A DNA stretch of 64,000 nucleotides from Cystobasidium ongulense (Eukaryota; Basidiomycota; Cystobasidiomycetes; Cystobasidiales; Cystobasidiaceae): positions 1,922,001 through 1,986,000 of the forward strand of contig BQUP01000004.1 of assembly GCA_022835595.1 (NCBI GenBank), given 5' to 3'. Both the position numbers and the translations under genes were made by a program. This document shows positions 37,048-64,000 of the stretch, in pieces; positions within the stretch are counted from its first letter, which is position 1, and each line of letters begins with the position of its first letter. A model generated the notes under the pieces. That model searched no databases and had not been told where the DNA came from. It saw nothing but the letters and a program-made list of their open reading frames with translations.

Positions 37048-37965
37048 GTTTGTTGTTTATCATGCTCGATGTGTGTGTGTGTGTGTATTTCCCGCCACCA
37101 GTAGGTAAGGTTGAAAATGAGAAAACAAAGCATGGAAGTCCAGAGTTGCTGCATGGAAGGCAAGCGTGTGACGAATGTGTGCGTCGACGTGTCTACGTGT
37201 CTTGAGTCCCTGCAAAGGCCCGGCCGAGTCTTCCACAAATGCAAGCCAGTCTCACCGCCAGAAGAAAGTCGGCTGCCCCGAAAGTTGGAGTTTGAGGAAT
37301 CCGAGTTTTGCAGGTCAGCGAAAGGCCGATTCATTCACCAGCAACAGGCAGGCCGCATCTACGCAGACAGTGTACATACACGTCTCGCTGCATTACGCAC
37401 ATCCACACACGCGCTGCTCGTCTGCACCCCAGCCAGCCGTGCCGTCCGCAACTCGCAGCCAGCCAGCCTCAATTGGGGGAAAGAGAGAGAGAGAGAGAGC
37501 GACAGCGTCAAAGAGCGAGAGAGAGCGAGTGAGACGAGATAAACGGTCAGCAGACACGTCAGGAAAGACTATAGGCCAGCGCGTGTCAAGAGCGCCAGCA
37601 GTACTACCCAAGCCCACATCTCCAGGTGAGCATGCGCGTTGGACCGCGAGCAGCTGCATTGGAGCGTAGAGCAGCACAAGCACAGCGGCAGCAATAGATG
37701 GGAAACGACAGGGAACAGCATGAGGGGCATACATGCACAGGTAGATGACACACTCGCTGTCTCGCTGCCTCACCCCCTTGTGTGCCCACCGCCCGCCCTA
37801 CCCAGCCTGTCGCGTCCGCCCCGCCATGATTCGAGGTCAAGCTGGTCGACACCATCCAGCTATTGCTCTGCTGCTCACGCTCCACAAGCTCGCTAGAACC
37901 TAGCCCGAAGTGTTACTTATTCTGATTTATATCGTTCGAACAGCCCTCAATATCCTCAACTCGCA
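37048..37965. other. Intergenic with simple repeats
   Basis: About 900 bp. It holds a GT run (37070-37086) and a GA-rich stretch (37480-37535). Several long frames on both strands lack motifs. It is the promoter of the first PP1 gene. Confidence 0.5.
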
Positions 37966-39569
37966 ATGGCAGAACAGACTCCAGAGGTCGACATCGACTC
38001 TGTCATCGACCGCCTGCTAGAAGGTGAGGATGATGTATTACGCGGTGTCGTGGGGTACCACAGACGGTGGAGAGCACACCAGAGCACCAATTGCGTCTCG
38101 CGTGTGGCCTCCCGGCTGCCCGTTCGCGCTCGAGTTTCGCCTATGCAAGCAGCAGCTGCAAACCGCGACCTTGGAAGCGAGCCTTCGTGCCCCGGCCTTT
38201 TATCCGACCTTTCACCGCCAGCAGTGACAGCATGCTGATACACTTGTCATCTCTGTCATGTTCTGTAGTACGAGGCAATAGACCAGGAAAGCAAGTACAA
38301 TTGCAAGAATCAGAGATCCGCTTCCTCTGCACAAAGGCACGGGAAATCTTCATCTCGCAACCTATTCTTCTTGAACTCGAAGCGCCGATAAAGATATGCG
38401 GTAGGTCGATCCGGCACTCACTTCATTTATATCAGTACTAGCGTTCCTGACGTATCCTTGTCTTTTACTCGCCCTGGCTGCTGTCCGTCCTTACCCGCTC
38501 ACAGGTGATATCCACGGACAATACTACGACCTCCTCAGACTCTTCGAATACGGCGGATTCCCACCAGAAGCGAATTATCTCTTCCTAGGAGATTATGTAG
38601 ATCGTGGAAAACAAAGTCTCGAGACCATCTGCTTACTCTTAGCATACAAGGTCGGTTTGCCCTTATCGGCGGCAGAGGCCAAGGCAGCTCATACTGACAT
38701 GTGAACTGCAGATCAAATACCCTGAAAATTTCTTCATCCTACGCGGTAATCACGAGTGCGCGAGTATCAACCGTATCTATGGCTTTTACGACGAATGTGA
38801 GTGTACAGAAACCTTGCTTTTGCGTTCGTCCCAACGCCGCCCTGCCACGCATCTTCAGTGATCGAGCATTGCCATGGCGCGCGAATTTAAAGCATTCACG
38901 AATCTAAAACAATGTTTTGTATGCGTACAGGCAAACGGCGGTACAACATCAAGCTATGGAAGACCTTCACAGACTGCTTCAACTGTCTTCCCATCGCAGC
39001 TATCATTGACGAGAAGATCTTCACTATGCACGGAGGACTATCGCCCGATTTACAAAGCATGGAACAGATTAGAAGAGTAATGAGACCAACAGACGTACCC
39101 GATACAGGATTGCTATGCGATTTGCTTTGGTCGGATCCAGATAAGGATATTACTGGATGGAGTGAAAATGACAGAGGTGTATCCTTCACATTTGGTCCAG
39201 ACGTCGTTTCGAGATTCTTACAGAAGCATGATATGGATTTGATATGTCGAGCTCATCAAGTTGTGGAAGACGGTTACGAGTTTTTCGCCAAGAGACAATT
39301 GGTGACACTATTTTCTGCACCGTGAGTTGACTAGCTCTTTCTTGCAATTTGTAATGAAGACAATGCTGACTCCGTCCTCGTTTCACAGTAATTATTGCGG
39401 AGAATTCGATAATGCAGGAGCAATGATGTCAGTCGACGAAACATTACTATGCTCATTCCAAATCTTAAAACCAGCGGAGAAGAAACAAAAATTTCAGTAT
39501 GGAGGGATGAACGTCGGTAGACCTGTAACACCGCCGCGCAAGCAGAAAAAGAAGGGAGAAGGAAAGTAA
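37966..39569 (+). CDS. GLC7: Protein phosphatase PP1 catalytic subunit, canonical copy
   Basis: Six exons (37966-38023, 38269-38400, 38505-38650, 38712-38796, 38931-39321, 39389-39569) give 330 residues. This Ser/Thr phosphatase acts with many regulatory subunits in mitosis, glycogen metabolism and gene expression. All metal and phosphate residues are present in their motifs: [63 protein letters not shown] and [18 protein letters not shown]. The RVxF docking groove residues (R261, L289, C291, F293 by human numbering) are retained. The C-terminus has [10 protein letters not shown], the CDK-type inhibitory TPPR site. The only small oddity is IFTMHGG where other PP1s have IFCMHGG or IFCCHGG. Intron 1 is 245 nt, long here. 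This copy probably supplies the essential function. Confidence 0.97.
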
Positions 39570-41046
39570 ACGCTGGTCGGAGGGTAAACAATAGAAAATG
39601 GGGAGACGAGAGAAAGAGAGACAATGAATGCTAGAGGGTTTCCATCGATATCTTTCAAAACTTTACTTCCCGCATTGAAAGCAATGAAGAGAAAGAACCT
39701 GACATATAAGCAATTTATATATCAGTTTGTACCCTGTTGAACTTACTACCTACCCTTCTACTTTGCTTGTATTACGACGCTAGCAAAGTTTCTTATCCTA
39801 CTATTCCGAACTCAGATTTAAACGAAATATCAAGAACGTCCCTATCTCCTGCCAAGCACTTGTCCCGTCCTCCCTTTCTCGCTTGAAATACCAATATCTT
39901 CCCTCACTTCCACTTGGGCCCAACTTGACGCTCTAGTACAAATACCATTCCTCATACTTCCCTTCGGACCCAAGCTTGAAGAACTCCCATTACAGCTTTA
40001 GCACAAATACAAGCCGCTTCAAAGTGACTATCAATTATGGAGCAAAAACTATATGCTTCCACTCGCACCTCAGTACTCCCAATATCTATGTCGACTCCAT
40101 CGAACGTAGTGTCTCATGAAGATGAAACGATTCAATTCATTCATTGTTTCGCGTCAAGGTTTTCGACAACTATAGACTCCGCTTTGGTGTGTTTTGTTGT
40201 TCCGAGGATACGAATCTCTAAGACGTGATATGTATACTTCTCTCTGTCTCGATCTCCCCCTTCTCTACCATTTCCTCTCCTTCCCTCCGAACTGTTTTCG
40301 TTTAACGTAAAAGGTGTAACAACAGGATTTCTTCTTCTACTATCTTCTTTCTTTCTTCTCCTTCATCTTTACTCACTCCTCCTACAAATATCTCGTTTTG
40401 TACTAGTTCCCTGCGGTTCCTTGCGCAATTCTGGAAAAATCAAGATCCCCGATCAGAAGATGCTTGAGTCTTCTTCTCTTCTCCCCCCGACTGACTCGTT
40501 TTGTTCGCAGCAAGCTTGGCAGATCTCGCTTCAGATTCATTTACATTCTATGTGTACATACTGCCACCCCCCGACTGACTCGTTTTGTTCGCAGCAAGCT
40601 TGGCAGATCTCGCTTCAGATTCATTTACATTCTATGTGTACATACTGCCACTGATAAAAACGCTCGGATGCGCGCGTGGCTGGCTCTTCCATCAATAACC
40701 CACCTCCGCAATCTCAACCGGCAGTGGCGCTGGGCACCTTACACAAAATCTTCCAGACATGCCTGGAACAACGTAGCTTGATGGACACGGGAAGGAGTGA
40801 TGAGGGTGCTGTGTACCCTGTCTTACTTACTGTGCATGTCATGCGCACCGCCAGCCGGTAAACAGTCTGTCAGGTCCGTTGCGCCAGACTGGTCGCGGTC
40901 ATGCTGATCAAGTTCATACAGCTAGCTGAATCGGAGACACCTCCGTACGTTACACAAGCCTCTTGGAACCGCTCCGATGTACTATTGTTTGCATATCGCA
41001 ACTTCTTGTCGCATATCCGAACAGCCATCAATAACCTCAACTTGCC
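39570..41046. other. Spacer between the PP1 copies
   Basis: About 1.5 kb. It contains an 84-bp tandem duplication and, just before the second PP1 start, a leader similar to that of the first (CGAACAGCC then TCAAT and CCTCAACT). No gene is supported. Confidence 0.55.
40483..40650. repeat. Two perfect 84-bp tandem repeats
   Basis: Units 40483-40566 and 40567-40650 are the same sequence, beginning with six C and GACTGACTCG and ending ACATACTGCCA. The length is 28 codons and one plus-strand frame is open through both. Confidence 0.95.
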
Positions 41047-42615
41047 ATGGTGGAACAGACTTCAGAGCCTGATGCCGATATAGACTCTGTCATTGCACGT
41101 TTGCTGGAAGGTGAGAGTTCATTCTTACTCGATGTCGAGGGATGCCAAAGACGGGATAAGCACTCGCTTCTTGCGTGCTATCCCGACCGTCCGTTGGCAG
41201 TCAACGGTCGGCATTACAAGCTGCAAACCTCGACTGTAAAACCGACCCTCTGCCATTCAGCCTTTTGTCTGACCTCTCACCGCTAGCAACCGACAGCACG
41301 CTGACGCATTTTGTCATCGCTGTCATGGCCTGCAGTACGAGGCAGTAGACGAGGCAAGCAAGTACAATTGCAAGAATCAGAAATCCACTTCCTCTGCACA
41401 AAGGCACGGGAAAGTTTCATGTCGCAGCCCATTCTTCTGGAACTTGAATTGCCGATAAAGATATGCGGTAGGTCTACTTCGTTCTCAGTTTTGTGGCAAG
41501 AGAGCCTCGTTCCTGATTATATGGTTTCTTCAACCGTCCTCTTCCTCCCTTCTAATACCGCACGCACCAACGTACTCGTAGGCGATATTCATGGACAATA
41601 CTATGACCTCCTCAGACTCTTTGAACTGGGTGGCTTCCCACCAGAAGCAAATTACCTCTTCCTAGGGGATTTTATAGATCGGGGGAAGCAGAGTCTCGAA
41701 ACAATCTGCTTACTGTTAGCATATAAGGTAGGTTTGCCCTTATCGGCAACGGAGGGCAAGGCATCTTTTCCTGAAATACTATATCCATTATTATGCAGAT
41801 CAAGCACCCTGAAAACTTCTTTCTCCTGCGCGGTAACCACGAATCCGAGAGTATCAACCGCATCTACGGCTTCTACGACGAATGTAAGTGCAAAAAAACT
41901 TGATTGTGCAAGTTTTTGCTTCAATGCCGCCATGGCACATGTTACGTATCGGGCGTTGCGATAACTCAGACGCAAGAAGGCTGATATCAGATTCATGAAC
42001 ATGCAGGTAAACGGCGGTACAACACTAAGCTATGGAAGACCTTCAACGACTGCTTCAACTGCCTCCCCATTGCAGCTATCATTGACGAGAAAATCTTCTG
42101 CATGCACGGCGGACTATCACCTGATTTGCAAAGCATAGAACAGATCAAAAGGGTCATGAGACCAACAGACGTACCCGATACAGGATTGCTATGCGATTTG
42201 CTTTGGTCGGATCCGGATAAGGATATCAAAGGATGGGATAGAAATGATAGAGGTGTATCCTTCACCTTTGGTCCAGACGTCGTTTCGAAGTTTCTACAGA
42301 AACATAATATGGATTTAATATGTAGAGGTCATCAAGTTGTAGCAGATGGGTACGAATTTTTCGCGGACCAAAAACTGGTGACGCTGTTCTCCGCACCGTG
42401 AGTTACTTTAGAATTACTTTACATACTGTTTTAGCAAGTTATGACCGTGCTGACTCAAACTTGCTTGTAGTGGCTATTGCGGAGAGTTCGATAATGCAGG
42501 AGCGATAATGTCAGTCGATAAGGAGCTGGTATGCTCGCTCGAAGTATTGAAACCAACCAACCAGAAAAAGGAAATTCCGCACGGGGAAACGAGACCAAGA
42601 GGTGGAGAGAAATAG
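41047..42615 (+). CDS. Diverged protein phosphatase PP1 catalytic paralogue
   Basis: Six exons (41047-41110, 41336-41467, 41582-41727, 41799-41883, 42007-42397, 42471-42615) give 320 residues. Internal exons of 132, 146, 85 and 391 nt are the same lengths as in the upstream PP1 gene, proving tandem duplication. Catalytic motifs remain: [28 protein letters not shown] and [10 protein letters not shown] with Y272. Changes by human numbering include Y93F, V94I, C127S, A128E, A247G, E252A, K260D, R261Q, N271G, M290V and F293L. The last few line the RVxF docking groove. The tail ([13 protein letters not shown]) lacks TPPR. I infer an active or weakly active phosphatase with altered partners. It has no internal stop or frameshift, so it looks selected rather than decayed. 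Confidence 0.93.
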
Positions 42616-51882: not shown

Positions 51883-53387
51883 CTAGAACCGCGTTGCTTC
51901 GGCCCCGCGTGGGAATGGAATACACTCCCTAACGTTCTCTATGCCGCACAACCAACTAACTAATCTTTCCCAGCCCAGACCGAAACCTCCATGTGGTGCT
52001 GAGCCATACCTCCTAAGGTCCAGATACCATTCATAATTTTCCACAGCCATACCGTGCTCTTTCATCGAAGCTGTGAGGATGTCTAGTCGTTCCTCGCGGA
52101 GGGATCCACCAACGAGCTCGCCCACCCTGGGAACGAGAAGATCGAAACATGCTACAGTCGCTTCTTGCAGGTTCTTATTGATACTGTTTGCGCGCATATA
52201 GAAGGGCTTTTGATTGGTAGGGTAGTCCGTCACGAAGGTGGGGCCATATTTGTCGGCCAGAAAGCGTTCATGCTCTGATTTGAGACCGCTTTCGTAGCTT
52301 GGCGAATGCTGAAACAGGGATCCGTCATCCTTCGCAGCTTGTTCTAGCTCCTTGACAGCTTCGGCATAGGTAATGCGCTTCCAGGGTTTTGTTGACGATG
52401 TTATGCTTTCGCATTGTTCGTAGCCTTTTGCCATGACTTGCTTGAGAGTAGATCCATTCTCTTGTAAGACTTGATGTGCAATGCTTCTGACTAGACCTTC
52501 CACGACACCCATTACATCCTCCAGATTTTCCGTCCATGCGAGCTCAGCTTCGCACATCCAGAACTCGTTGAGATGTCTATTTGTGTCTGATCTTTCCGCC
52601 CGAAAACATGGTCCAAGGTGCCATGCTTTGCCTAGACCACCGCCTATCGTCAAAGCTTCCAAATGCAGTTGCCCGGAAACTGTGAGGTACGATGGGCAAT
52701 CACCCCAGAAAGGCTTCTCCTTCCCTGAAGGACCATGCATAACCGTGAAGACCTCTCCTGCGCCTTCACAGTCCGAGCTTGTAATGATGGGCATAGCTAC
52801 GTTTGTGTAGCCTTGATCTCGGAAATATGTGTAGCATGCTCGCGTCATAGTATCGCGTACGCGAAGCATAGTCGCTATCGTCGTCGTTCTACCTCGCAAA
52901 TGAGCATTTCGTCGGAGAAAAGGTGCCGAGTGATCTTTCTTCTGTATGGGGTATGTCTGGGCGCGCTCGTCTTAGCATGAACGACGTACATGACCGAGAA
53001 AGAACAGCTTACTGCACCATCACACTCGCCAATAACCTCTAAAGCATCGACTTGCAGCTCTGCAATCTTCTCCATAGCTTCGGCAGTATCATTTCGACGA
53101 CCACCTTTCTTCTCGGTCAATCGGCCAGTGAAGCTGACGCTCGCACCAGTCTGGAGGCCAGCATGGGTAGCTTGACCTTCCTTTTCAAGCAGAGAATTAG
53201 GTATCACAGCTTGTAGACCCTCATTGTTGCTGCCGTCGTTCAAATTGACGAAAGAAATGTGCTTTTGACGCCTGATACTCTTGATCCACGCATTGATTTG
53301 AACTTGTTCCGCTGCGCTAGACTGACAATCCCGTATGCTAATGCGCTTCGCTATGGACTGTGCACATCTTCGTACGCTGACTTGCAT
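51883..53387 (-). CDS. SLM5: Asparaginyl-tRNA synthetase, probably mitochondrial
   Basis: Two exons (53013-53387, 51883-52956) give 482 residues. It charges tRNA-Asn. The N-terminus MQVSVRRCAQSIAKRISIRD is basic, amphipathic and free of acidic residues until about position 20, as in mitochondrial presequences. The OB-fold reads VQINAWIKSIRRQKHISFVN. Class II motifs are seen: motif 1 region RGRTTTIATMLRVRDTM, motif 2 AWHLGPCFRAERSDTNRHL and motif 3 GGFGLGWERLVSWLCG with the ATP-binding arginine. The asparagine-type signature FYMRAN and VPRVGELVGGSLREER fit the bacterial/mitochondrial branch. A nuclear-encoded cytosolic AsnRS would be a separate gene. Mitochondrial localisation is inferred from the presequence. 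Confidence 0.9.
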
Positions 53388-61400: not shown

Positions 61401-64000
61401 AGCCTCTCGCCAGAGGATGTCACGGAAAAGCTCATCAAGACCTGGTCGCTCGATGCGGAAGCCATATCTTCGGCCTCGAGTCTGGAAAGCGGTCTCATAT
61501 CTACCGATCCGGATGTTATGCGCATTCGAATGCCGCTATACATAGCAGACTGGGTACTCAACCAGCTCATCACCATCTGGAGGGAGCCTGGTCTGAAGGC
61601 CCTTCATCTTGCAGTGAGTCTCCACTGCCTCTCCCTGTTTCCAGTAGATTCGTTCTCATAATTTCACGTGACTAGGTCGCCGACGCAATAGTACGCATCT
61701 TTAGGCATGAGCGGAGCCGAGTCCGCTCTTGGCATTTCCTCAATAGTATCATACCATGCTTCTTGGATGCTATCAATGATCGCAGTCTAGATACTACGAG
61801 CACCTGCTTTTACATAGCGGCTCTTGGGAAGGTGTGCAAAGTGGCTGACACCCGAGTCGAAGAACACGTTCAATCCATTCTGGGCGCTCTCATGGCGAGA
61901 TGGGACGACGGCCTCGAGCCTACCAATTGCATAGTCGAGGCAATCGCAGACTTGGCTGTTGCATTGCGGGGAAGCTTTCAAAAATACTTGCCGCTGGTCA
62001 TAGCAAAGATCTGTAGTGTGCTACGGCTCCACACTTGTTCAGAGGCAACGGCCTTGGCTGCACTTCGTCTTCTGCAAGAAACGGCAGCCTTATTACGAGA
62101 TTGGACGCATATCATAATACCAGCGCTACTAGCCACTGCCGAAACGCCCACAAGTAACAATTCAATGGCAGTTATGGACACGCTACTCGCCCTCTCCTGT
62201 TCGGCACATATCACGCCGCATTTATCCCGCATTCTGCCGGTACTCCATAAGATGTATCTATGTCCTCATCTCAGTGATAAGGCACTGCGTACTATGTGCT
62301 CTATAGCCAAGGAATGTGGGAAAGACGCCAACAGCTTTGTTCGGGGTTTTGAACGCCACGTCGGAATCACTATCATTGGCCATTGCTATTACAACGAGTA
62401 TCTTGAAGGCACGGGGGGAGTCTTTGAACCGAGGTGAGCATAAAACAACATTAGGTCGACTGTCCCTGACCAGATATCTGCATTAGACCTGAAGAAGCGG
62501 ACGATACTACTGAGGTTCCTGACTTGAACGTCGATAGCATCGTCACTGCATTCGGACCTCCCAAAGGCGCCGTAAGCTGGTCTGACTGGCTCCACAATTT
62601 AACGAGCTCTGTCGTGAAGACCAGCAACAACCACCATGTTCGCGCCTCAGCTCCAGTTTCAGAGGCGTACCCTCCCCTTCAACGGCAGCTTATCAACTAC
62701 GCTACATATACCGATTGGATTGACTTACCCAAGGAGGCTCGAACTGAGATCTGCAGACACTTATCCGAAGCTCTTAGCATGCAAGCAACGCTGGAAGTGC
62801 ATGACATGATTCTTCAGTAAGTGAACAGATAAATGGTTACCTTCCAAGACACTGATGAAAAAAACTCCTCCCCTCATCAGTCTGATAGACTTCATGAGCC
62901 GCATGGGTATCGAGCTTGCTATACCTCCCAAGCTATGTAAAGAAGCTGCCCTCAGAAGAAACTTTTTACATCGGGCACACCGGTATGCAGAGCTGGAATA
63001 TGCAGAAGCACAGGACGAGTCGGTGATCAATGATCTTCTCAAGATTGAGCACGACTTTCAACATCGCGAACCAGACCACGCCCTTGGTCTTCTAACAATG
63101 ACGACCCAGTCCACAGTCGAGTGGGCCGAGCTTGGACAGTGGCATCAGACTTTACAGTCGTACGACGCCGAGCTGGCTAAAGATCCGGAGAGCCACAGCG
63201 CTATCCGAGGAGTGTCTCGGTGTCTACATGCGCTACAGGAGTGGGATATTTTGTTGACATTCGGAGAATCTAAGGTGAATACAGCAGACATCGATCTGCA
63301 ACGCGCAGTGGCTCCCATCATCGCATCAGCAGCGTGGAGCGTCAATCGCTTCGATACGATGGAGCAGGCAATTACACTTATGCAAGGCCCGGAGCGAGCG
63401 TGGTACTCCGGCGTTCTAGCCACAATTGAAAATGATCTTCCTGCGGCAGAAGCGCATATCAATACCGCTAGAGATATGCTGTGCCGAGATTTGGGTATGT
63501 CTTTGGCTAGAACGACATTTACACTGTGTAGAATACTGATTACATCGGCTCCAACAGTCAGTATGCGGGGAACACGATCAGGCCGAGCATACGATCTTTT
63601 GGTACGCACCCAGCTCCTGACTGAGCTGGAAGAAGCGTGAGTCGGCAGCGAACCGTGCAAGAATAGTTGCTGAAGTGACTCATATTAGGGGCCGCTACCG
63701 TCTGTTTGAGAGCGAGCGCCCGCTGATACGAGAGCGGTGGACGCATCGGTTAGGCAAACTCCAGAAGGAAATCGAGGTAATGCAGCGATGTCTCAAGGTA
63801 AGCACGGATAACAAGTATCCTAGTGTGACACGCACTGATGCTCACTTTTTTTTAGATCCATTCCCTTGCGATACCACCCTCTGAGAACGCCAAAGCTATG
63901 ACAAAGTATGCGAGAATATGTAGGAAAGCTGGGAGAAACGATCTCGCATACAAGGTCCTCACCTCTACCATGGCTGTTGGCTCGAGCGATCCTCTTGACT
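58404..64000 (+). CDS. TOR: TOR kinase (target of rapamycin), 5' part, cut by window edge
   Basis: Twelve exons are visible (58404-58627, 58701-59095, 59175-59705, 59768-60612, 60666-60757, 60814-60900, 60962-61613, 61676-62433, 62487-62816, 62881-63636, 63689-63797, 63856 to the edge), about 1641 codons with correct phase throughout. TOR is the central growth kinase of TORC1/TORC2. The N-terminal HEAT array contains SERKRLGAIIFFTEIFSVDE and EIREAGKLALEVC. The later array includes FVQYTLQGLRDQASAVKRRS and TIWREPGLKALHLAVADAIV. The FAT domain starts near ALRRNFLHRAHRYAELEYAE and shows LYALQEWD-type LHALQEWDILLTFGESKVN, ITLMQGPERAWYSGVLATIE and RERWTHRLGKLQKEIEVMQR. The FRB, kinase and FATC domains lie beyond 64000. 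A basic Arg/Ser insert (RRASVASLREP to RARARSIS, about 60140-60240) interrupts the HEAT array. Confidence 0.93.

Follow-up and report, generated by a model that had tools for sequence, protein, structure and literature searches.

The plus strand of the 64-kb stretch of DNA analysed here (the window) carries two PP1 genes in head-to-tail arrangement, the first encoding a canonical PP1 catalytic subunit (copy 1) and the second a diverged paralogue (copy 2). The exon borders of both genes were set by hand and then spliced by script (Table 1). Five intron positions are common to the two genes, all with GT-AG borders, and the spliced translation of copy 2 contained zero internal stops. An earlier note on this DNA had placed the second PP1 in an interval that proved to run exactly from the ATG to the stop of copy 2.

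Table 1 Features of the tandem PP1 locus (positions in the window; residues in human PP1 numbering)
Feature	Position	Strand	Description	Basis
Copy 1, canonical PP1 catalytic subunit	37966..39569	+	330 aa, six exons, C-terminal TPPR	Spliced translation, Pfam
Copy 1 exons	37966-38023, 38269-38400, 38505-38650, 38712-38796, 38931-39321, 39389-39569	+		
Copy 2, diverged PP1 paralogue	41047..42615	+	Six exons, intact, 963 nt, 320 aa	Spliced translation, Pfam
Copy 2 exon 1	41047-41110	+	6 nt longer than copy 1 exon 1	
Copy 2 exon 2	41336-41467	+	3' end encodes KICG; SILK-pocket E54 and E56 kept; A57L	
Copy 2 exon 3	41582-41727	+	Motifs GDIHG, GDFIDRG; Y78L (PhiPhi pocket), Y93F, V94I	
Copy 2 exon 4	41799-41883	+	Motif RGNHE; C127S, A128E	
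Copy 2 exon 5	42007-42397	+	H173, D208, R221, H248 kept; E252A, K260D, R261Q, Q262K	
Copy 2 exon 6	42471-42615	+	Residue 271 is the first full codon (N271G); Y272 kept; E287K, L290V, F293L, Q294E, I295V; tail without TPPR	
Left alignable duplication unit	37937..39502	+	Starts 29 nt before copy 1 ATG, ends within exon 6	blastn
Right alignable duplication unit	41018..42584	+	Starts 29 nt before copy 2 ATG	blastn
84-bp unit, two exact tandem copies	40483..40650	+	About 400 bp upstream of copy 2	

Both proteins carry the Pfam STPPase_N and Metallophos domains, and 261 of the 311 aligned columns are identical between them (84%). The best PDB match of copy 1 was PP1-beta (1s70), and the closest solved structures to copy 2 by sequence were those of PP1-gamma. 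Among the matches listed, several fungal PP1s, including those of Laetiporus, Rhizophagus and Leucocoprinus, were 94-95% identical to copy 1, with 96-100% of copy 1 covered, and in a protein tree copy 1 joined the basidiomycete rows weakly (80/60). In copy 2 the first Pfam domain begins after only 11 residues, leaving no long N-terminal extension of the PPZ type. The C-terminal tails differ, copy 2 ending in ETRPRGGEK without the RPVTPPR tail of copy 1.

The two duplication units aligned by blastn at 74% over 1608 columns, introns included, and the five introns of copy 1 and copy 2 matched in 67-75% of ungapped columns, each exceeding all 100 shuffles. Copy 2 arose by DNA-level tandem duplication and not as a retrocopy. 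Further upstream than 29 nt before the ATG, blastn detected no homology between the two genes. The 84-bp repeat, of which a genome search revealed no additional copy, appears to have been duplicated very recently, within the likely promoter region of copy 2. Within exon 5 of each gene (42007-42397 and 38931-39321), copy 1 and copy 2 match at 19 consecutive codons corresponding to human residues 190-208, even at synonymous sites (permutation p=0.006); this sequence pattern is suggestive, and only suggestive, of gene conversion.

No further PP1 this close was found in the genome (19.8 Mb, 19 contigs; 24 candidates scored), the next-closest relative being a PPZ-like gene on a different contig with 65-67% identity. 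The PPZ-like gene (L002, minus strand, G000:C1:724016-724838) has M78, D260, E294 and F279. The profile of the Ypi1/inhibitor-3 family (PF07491) gave one match above the cut-off, covering 36/57 positions (L017, G000:C3:984618-984716), so that an inhibitor-3-type regulator is probably encoded in the genome. The Inhibitor-2 profile (PF04979) gave zero matches in the genome and zero in the controls, and this result is therefore uninformative. Scanning the window against Rfam and for tRNAs gave no hits. By eye, the ORF at 51883-52899 (-) resembles an asparaginyl-tRNA synthetase and the ORF at 62855-63640 (+) a stretch of TOR kinase.

For comparison with the wider family, 240 distinct proteins were drawn from protein-database searches (the best 120 of thousands per search), of which 224 aligned to copy 1 over at least 200 residues and 16 were left out. 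Copy 1 departs from the majority of these 224 rows at 11 sites, and copy 2 agrees with copy 1 at 6 of them. Over human residues 8-298 the two copies differ at 37 positions; judged by residue frequency in the 224 rows, copy 2 carries the derived residue at 35 of these positions and copy 1 at 2 (binomial p=1e-8). In the protein tree the branch length was 0.23 for copy 2 and 0 for copy 1, the position of copy 2 being unsettled owing to its long branch. Where the earlier note had proposed dN/dS by site class, the estimate obtained is a whole-gene pairwise one between copy 1 and copy 2 (292 codons; NG86, LWL85, YN00 and ML), with dN of 0.073-0.077, dS of 0.49-0.74 and omega of 0.10-0.15. Differences at codon positions 1, 2 and 3 numbered 25, 23 and 89. 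Assuming that synonymous change is split equally, the branch omega was approximately 0.2-0.3 for copy 2 and 0.01-0.02 for copy 1.

Neutral evolution was simulated along one branch at four lengths (0.15-0.37; 400 runs each). The runs accumulated on average 78-150 amino-acid changes, with a minimum of 59 in any run, against 35-38 observed; they acquired on average 4.0-7.7 stops and were stop-free in at most 2.25% of cases, against no stops observed. When sites were grouped by decreasing family conservation, 8/136 (at least 98% conserved), 6/57, 5/25, 7/37 and 11/36 (below 70%) were changed, the raw counts declining as conservation rises. Together, the dN/dS values, the simulations and this conservation pattern indicate that copy 2 is held under selection. 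Neither the frame breaks nor the neutral codon pattern of a PP1 pseudogene was found. Neutral change at all residues, catalytic ones included, which the earlier note had named as a refutation of its reading, was not seen in this pairwise comparison. Copy 2 is under purifying selection, looser than that on copy 1. Codons with a change at position 1 as well as at position 2 numbered eight, more than the 2.0 expected overall (p=0.0001); among the 38 changed codons, however, 12.1 were expected and there is no excess, which points to uneven constraint rather than selection for change. Positive selection is unsupported at a whole-gene pairwise omega in this range.

The earlier note had described the metal- and phosphate-binding motifs as kept, and all 13 of the metal, phosphate and general-base residues checked are indeed unchanged in copy 2. 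They include D64, H66, D92, R96, N124, H125, H173, R221 and H248, which we take to be PP1 metal and phosphate ligands and the general base. The absence of change at catalytic sites (0/13, compared with 14/180 at other conserved sites) was not significantly low (p=0.36). Judging from these residues, copy 2 is very probably still an active phosphatase, and we infer that it has been retained as an active enzyme. The idea that it is instead a decoy, binding substrates or inhibitors without turnover, draws on N271G, Y93F and V94I, which adjoin active-site residues in sequence. It is very improbable given the 13/13 residues kept, and a further phosphatase encoded in the genome (L008) likewise combines F93 with D92 and D95.

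The residues of the docking pockets were taken, in human numbering, from published descriptions of RVxF (PMC9582199, PMC3387161), PhiPhi (PMC9582199, PMC4999541) and the inhibitor-3 acidic groove (PMC10776994, PMC10066265). In the RVxF pocket, 9 of 12 residues are kept (D166, I169, D242, L243, Y255, F257, M283, L289 and C291) and three are changed in copy 2 (R261Q, L290V and F293L); in the PhiPhi pocket, five of eight are kept (R74, A279, L296, K297 and P298) and three changed (Y78L, Q294E and I295V). The substitutions F293L and I295V are conservative. All four SILK acidic residues (E54, E56, D166 and E167) are kept, as is the inhibitor-3 Lys59 pocket (4/4; D208, D210, N219 and D220). In the inhibitor-3 acidic groove E252A is changed, and the remaining three of four residues (D253, E256 and E275) are kept. 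E287K flips one charge in the acidic patch that is described as lying between the SILK and RVxF sites (PMC10066265). The single residue checked at the SDS22 interface, Y134, which binds SDS22 (PMC10776994), is kept in copy 2. Outside the docking pockets, conserved sites are also changed (A57L, Y93F, V94I, A128E, T153N and A247G).

Several of these changes had been listed in the earlier note, and R261Q, F293L, K260D, Q262K and N271G are all present in copy 2. The change that it gave as M290V is correct relative to human PP1; copy 1, however, has L290, so the local change is L290V (in the 224 rows, residue 290 is M in 135 and L in 77). It had not listed Y78L, E252A, E287K, Q294E, I295V, A57L, C127S/A128E or Y93F/V94I. 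K260D and Q262K, although present, are not special, with D260 in 31/215 rows and K262 in 11/215; 26 of the 31 D260 rows are plants by name, and D260 is also the PPZ residue. N271G turns the SAPNYC signature of the beta12-beta13 loop, whose N271 occurs in 215/215 rows, into SAPGYC, and because this signature is broken copy 2 was filed as a diverged PP1 paralogue and not as a canonical PP1. Other residues of copy 2 are rare in the 224 rows (L293 in 2, E294 in 1 and K287 in 2), and G271, Q261, L78 and A252 each occur in 0/224, rows short of a site being counted as lacking it; no orthologue of copy 2 was found among these rows. Among the best 120 of thousands of matches to copy 2, none exceeded 85% identity. 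The species itself is possibly absent from the database, and since its own copy 2 is missing from the listing, the absence of orthologues is weak evidence.

Published work indicates what some of these substitutions may do. In the fission yeast PP1 Dis2, F292A (human F293) abolishes two-hybrid binding of Ppn1, a PNUTS relative, and R260A (human R261) weakens it, whereas neither C290 nor the acidic residues D165 and D239 nor the tail mattered for this interaction in the assays described (PMC7990198). D240N should thus be harmless for Ppn1, because alanine at the Dis2 equivalent was without effect, and at 293 leucine is a milder substitution than alanine, which makes weakened binding likelier than lost binding. 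Y78 defines the PhiPhi pocket; in Candida PPZ1, where Lys replaces Y78, Trp occupies position 279 and an extra C-terminal helix contributes, affinity for GADD34 is more than 19-fold weaker and pull-down of PNUTS and spinophilin is reduced by approximately 85% (PMC4999541). Copy 2 is changed at Y78 yet, unlike PPZ1, keeps A279. The PTG regulator is contacted by Y78 and Q294 (PMC9582199), and inhibitor-3 by E252 and R261, R261 contacting its D49 and E252 being one of four acids opposite its arginines (PMC10066265). In the complexes examined in PMC10214084, N271 touches all PP1 regulators except I-2. By analogy with these studies, copy 2 would be expected to show lower affinity for RVxF- and PhiPhi-dependent regulators, with a milder effect on others. 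The tail deserves less weight: the earlier note had spoken of an inhibitory tail being lost, and the spliced translation bears out the absence of TPPR, but the loss carries little meaning, since TPPR lies within the last 45 residues of only 52 of 100 database PP1s of 300-345 aa (among the matches listed) and the Dis2 tail is dispensable in fission yeast (PMC7990198). Absence of the TPPR tail is neither rare nor informative.

Enrichment for change was assessed at the docking sites. The RVxF pocket alone was not enriched (3/12 changed, compared with 34/279 elsewhere; p=0.19), and the PhiPhi pocket alone gave 3/8 against 34/283 (p=0.07). Residues 240-298 were changed at 14/59 sites, compared with 23/232 (p=0.006), and the two pockets combined at 6/20, compared with 31/271 (p=0.03). 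Restricting the combined set by family conservation gave 5/19 against 14/199 at sites at least 90% conserved (p=0.016), 5/19 against 9/174 at sites at least 95% conserved (Fisher p=0.006; intervals 0.09-0.51 and 0.02-0.10), a roughly fivefold higher frequency of change at near-invariant docking residues than at the remaining near-invariant ones, and 3/14 against 5/122 at sites at least 98% conserved (p=0.036). No linear clustering was detected, the densest 12-residue window holding six changes (p=0.14). The RVxF and PhiPhi pockets together appear modestly enriched for change; because PhiPhi was added post hoc and several uncorrected tests were run, this is suggestive and not proof. The earlier assertion that regulatory docking is lost is not supported, given that nine of twelve RVxF residues and all four SILK acidic residues are kept and the RVxF pocket alone shows no enrichment, although it is true that several near-invariant docking residues are altered.

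These distributions bear on a live rival account, that copy 2 is partly redundant and has changed under weaker constraint throughout, wherever PP1 tolerates it, without a new role. Changes are commonest at variable sites and dispersed over the protein, they form no significant linear cluster, they are not enriched in the RVxF pocket by itself, and the double-changed codons fit uneven constraint. Nevertheless, we regard this account as somewhat unlikely, as the frame, the splice sites and every catalytic residue checked are intact at a dS of approximately 0.5-0.7, neutral runs at branch lengths of 0.15-0.37 seldom stayed stop-free, and near-invariant docking residues changed disproportionately. 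A second account, akin to a suggestion made for Sds21 of fission yeast, holds that copy 2 retains sufficient docking to bind the usual regulators and differs from copy 1 mainly in timing or level of expression. In keeping with this proposal, the majority of docking residues are intact and the promoter region is not recognisably common beyond 29 nt; it is made unlikely by the changes at F293, R261, Y78, Q294 and N271, which include residues found in none of the 224 rows (G271, Q261 and L78), and by the effect on Ppn1 binding of alanine at the F293 and R261 equivalents (PMC7990198).

In our best reading, copy 2 is an isoform of PP1 that has become specialised, in part resembling PPZ, and whose RVxF-PhiPhi docking is weakened. 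With moderate confidence, on the basis of sequence comparison, we regard it as a tandem-born, constrained and fast-diverging isoform in which selection may be loosened or altered on the RVxF-PhiPhi strip and the acidic substrate groove. In the mechanism that we propose, R261Q, L290V and F293L would weaken the RVxF pocket, Y78L and Q294E would spoil the PhiPhi pocket, E252A with R261Q would reduce binding of inhibitor-3-type regulators, and N271G would alter the beta12-beta13 loop. Docking is predicted, by analogy, to be weakened rather than lost; the number of GLC7/PP1 regulators bound by copy 2 would fall, with a smaller effect on SILK-type binding, and the enzyme may serve as a PP1 that is specialised or less restrained, expressed from a promoter not recognisably that of copy 1. 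A more far-reaching version, in which the docking strip (78, 252, 260-262, 271 and 287-295) has been remade to exclude GLC7 regulators and accept different partners, seems quite unlikely to us; if it were true, the two neighbouring genes would supply PP1 enzymes running insulated holoenzyme networks.

The PPZ-like features of copy 2 could also be read as a shift to PPZ-type regulation, such as Hal3 sensitivity, via K260D and Q294E. K260D corresponds in our numbering to D615 of Ppz1, and D615K makes Ppz1 refractory to Hal3 (PMC8836105); D260 and E294 are both present in the PPZ of this genome. Moreover, 22 of 37 copy 2 changes fall at PPZ-differing sites (94/291; p=0.00025), and at 4 of these 22 the residue is identical to that of PPZ (permutation p=0.04). 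The same overlap is nevertheless expected from shared drift at PP1-tolerated sites, two of the four identical residues (L120 and C171) are ordinary PP1 residues, and D260 is frequent in plant PP1. PPZ enzymes are marked by D at both the K211 and K260 positions, and copy 2, with D260, retains K211. In addition, Ppz1 of Cryptococcus and Ustilago is reported not to be regulated by Hal3-like proteins (PMC6506691, PMC6695811). Such a capture is highly improbable, and we retain the specialised isoform with weakened docking as our preferred reading.

Most fungi have a single PP1 gene (PMC6506691). In a survey of 57 fungi, a second PP1 was recorded in four fission yeasts, Calocera viscosa, Gonapodya prolifera and Allomyces macrogynus, the Sds21 proteins being the most divergent PP1s of that survey (PMC8836105). 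Among the papers listed in our literature search, none reported tandem PP1 duplicates in basidiomycetes. With the Glc7/Dis2 family, copy 2 shares the Pfam domains, the active-site motifs and, via copy 1, the intron plan; it differs by the 37 substitutions relative to copy 1 and by having no TPPR tail. Sds21 of fission yeasts is likewise a second PP1 beside a canonical one, with a divergent C-terminal tail (PMC7990198, PMC8836105). However, Sds21 has retained Ppn1 binding, and its catalytic domain can take the place of Dis2 (PMC7990198), whereas copy 2 has altered docking residues and stands in tandem with copy 1. Fungal PPZ resembles copy 2 in its PP1-like catalytic domain and changed PhiPhi pocket, and the PPZ of this genome shares D260 and E294 with it; by contrast, copy 2 lacks the long N-terminal extension, retains the SILK acids as well as K211 and A279, and shares 84% identity with copy 1. 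Drosophila PpY-55A, PpD6, Pp1-Y1 and Pp1-Y2 are also extra PP1 copies, some of them in tandem, but these began as retrocopies and the new ones described there are male-specific (PMC3137614), whereas copy 2 was duplicated at the DNA level and has every intron. Together with single-residue isoform selectivity of PP1 in mammals (PMC5005033) and isotype-specific PP1 docking in Leishmania (PMC10731240), the fission yeast and Drosophila precedents make a second, diverged PP1 an already known kind; among the material examined, this combination of changes is new at the level of sequence. The specificity surface of PP1 is common to very many regulators and is thus nearly frozen. Copy 2 has kept its catalytic residues and changed its partner-docking surface, which suggests that it may work with fewer of the usual partner proteins. 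With docking parts moved and active-site residues fixed, it offers a natural experiment on the contacts that each regulator needs, and it bears on how PPZ-like enzymes may have split from PP1.
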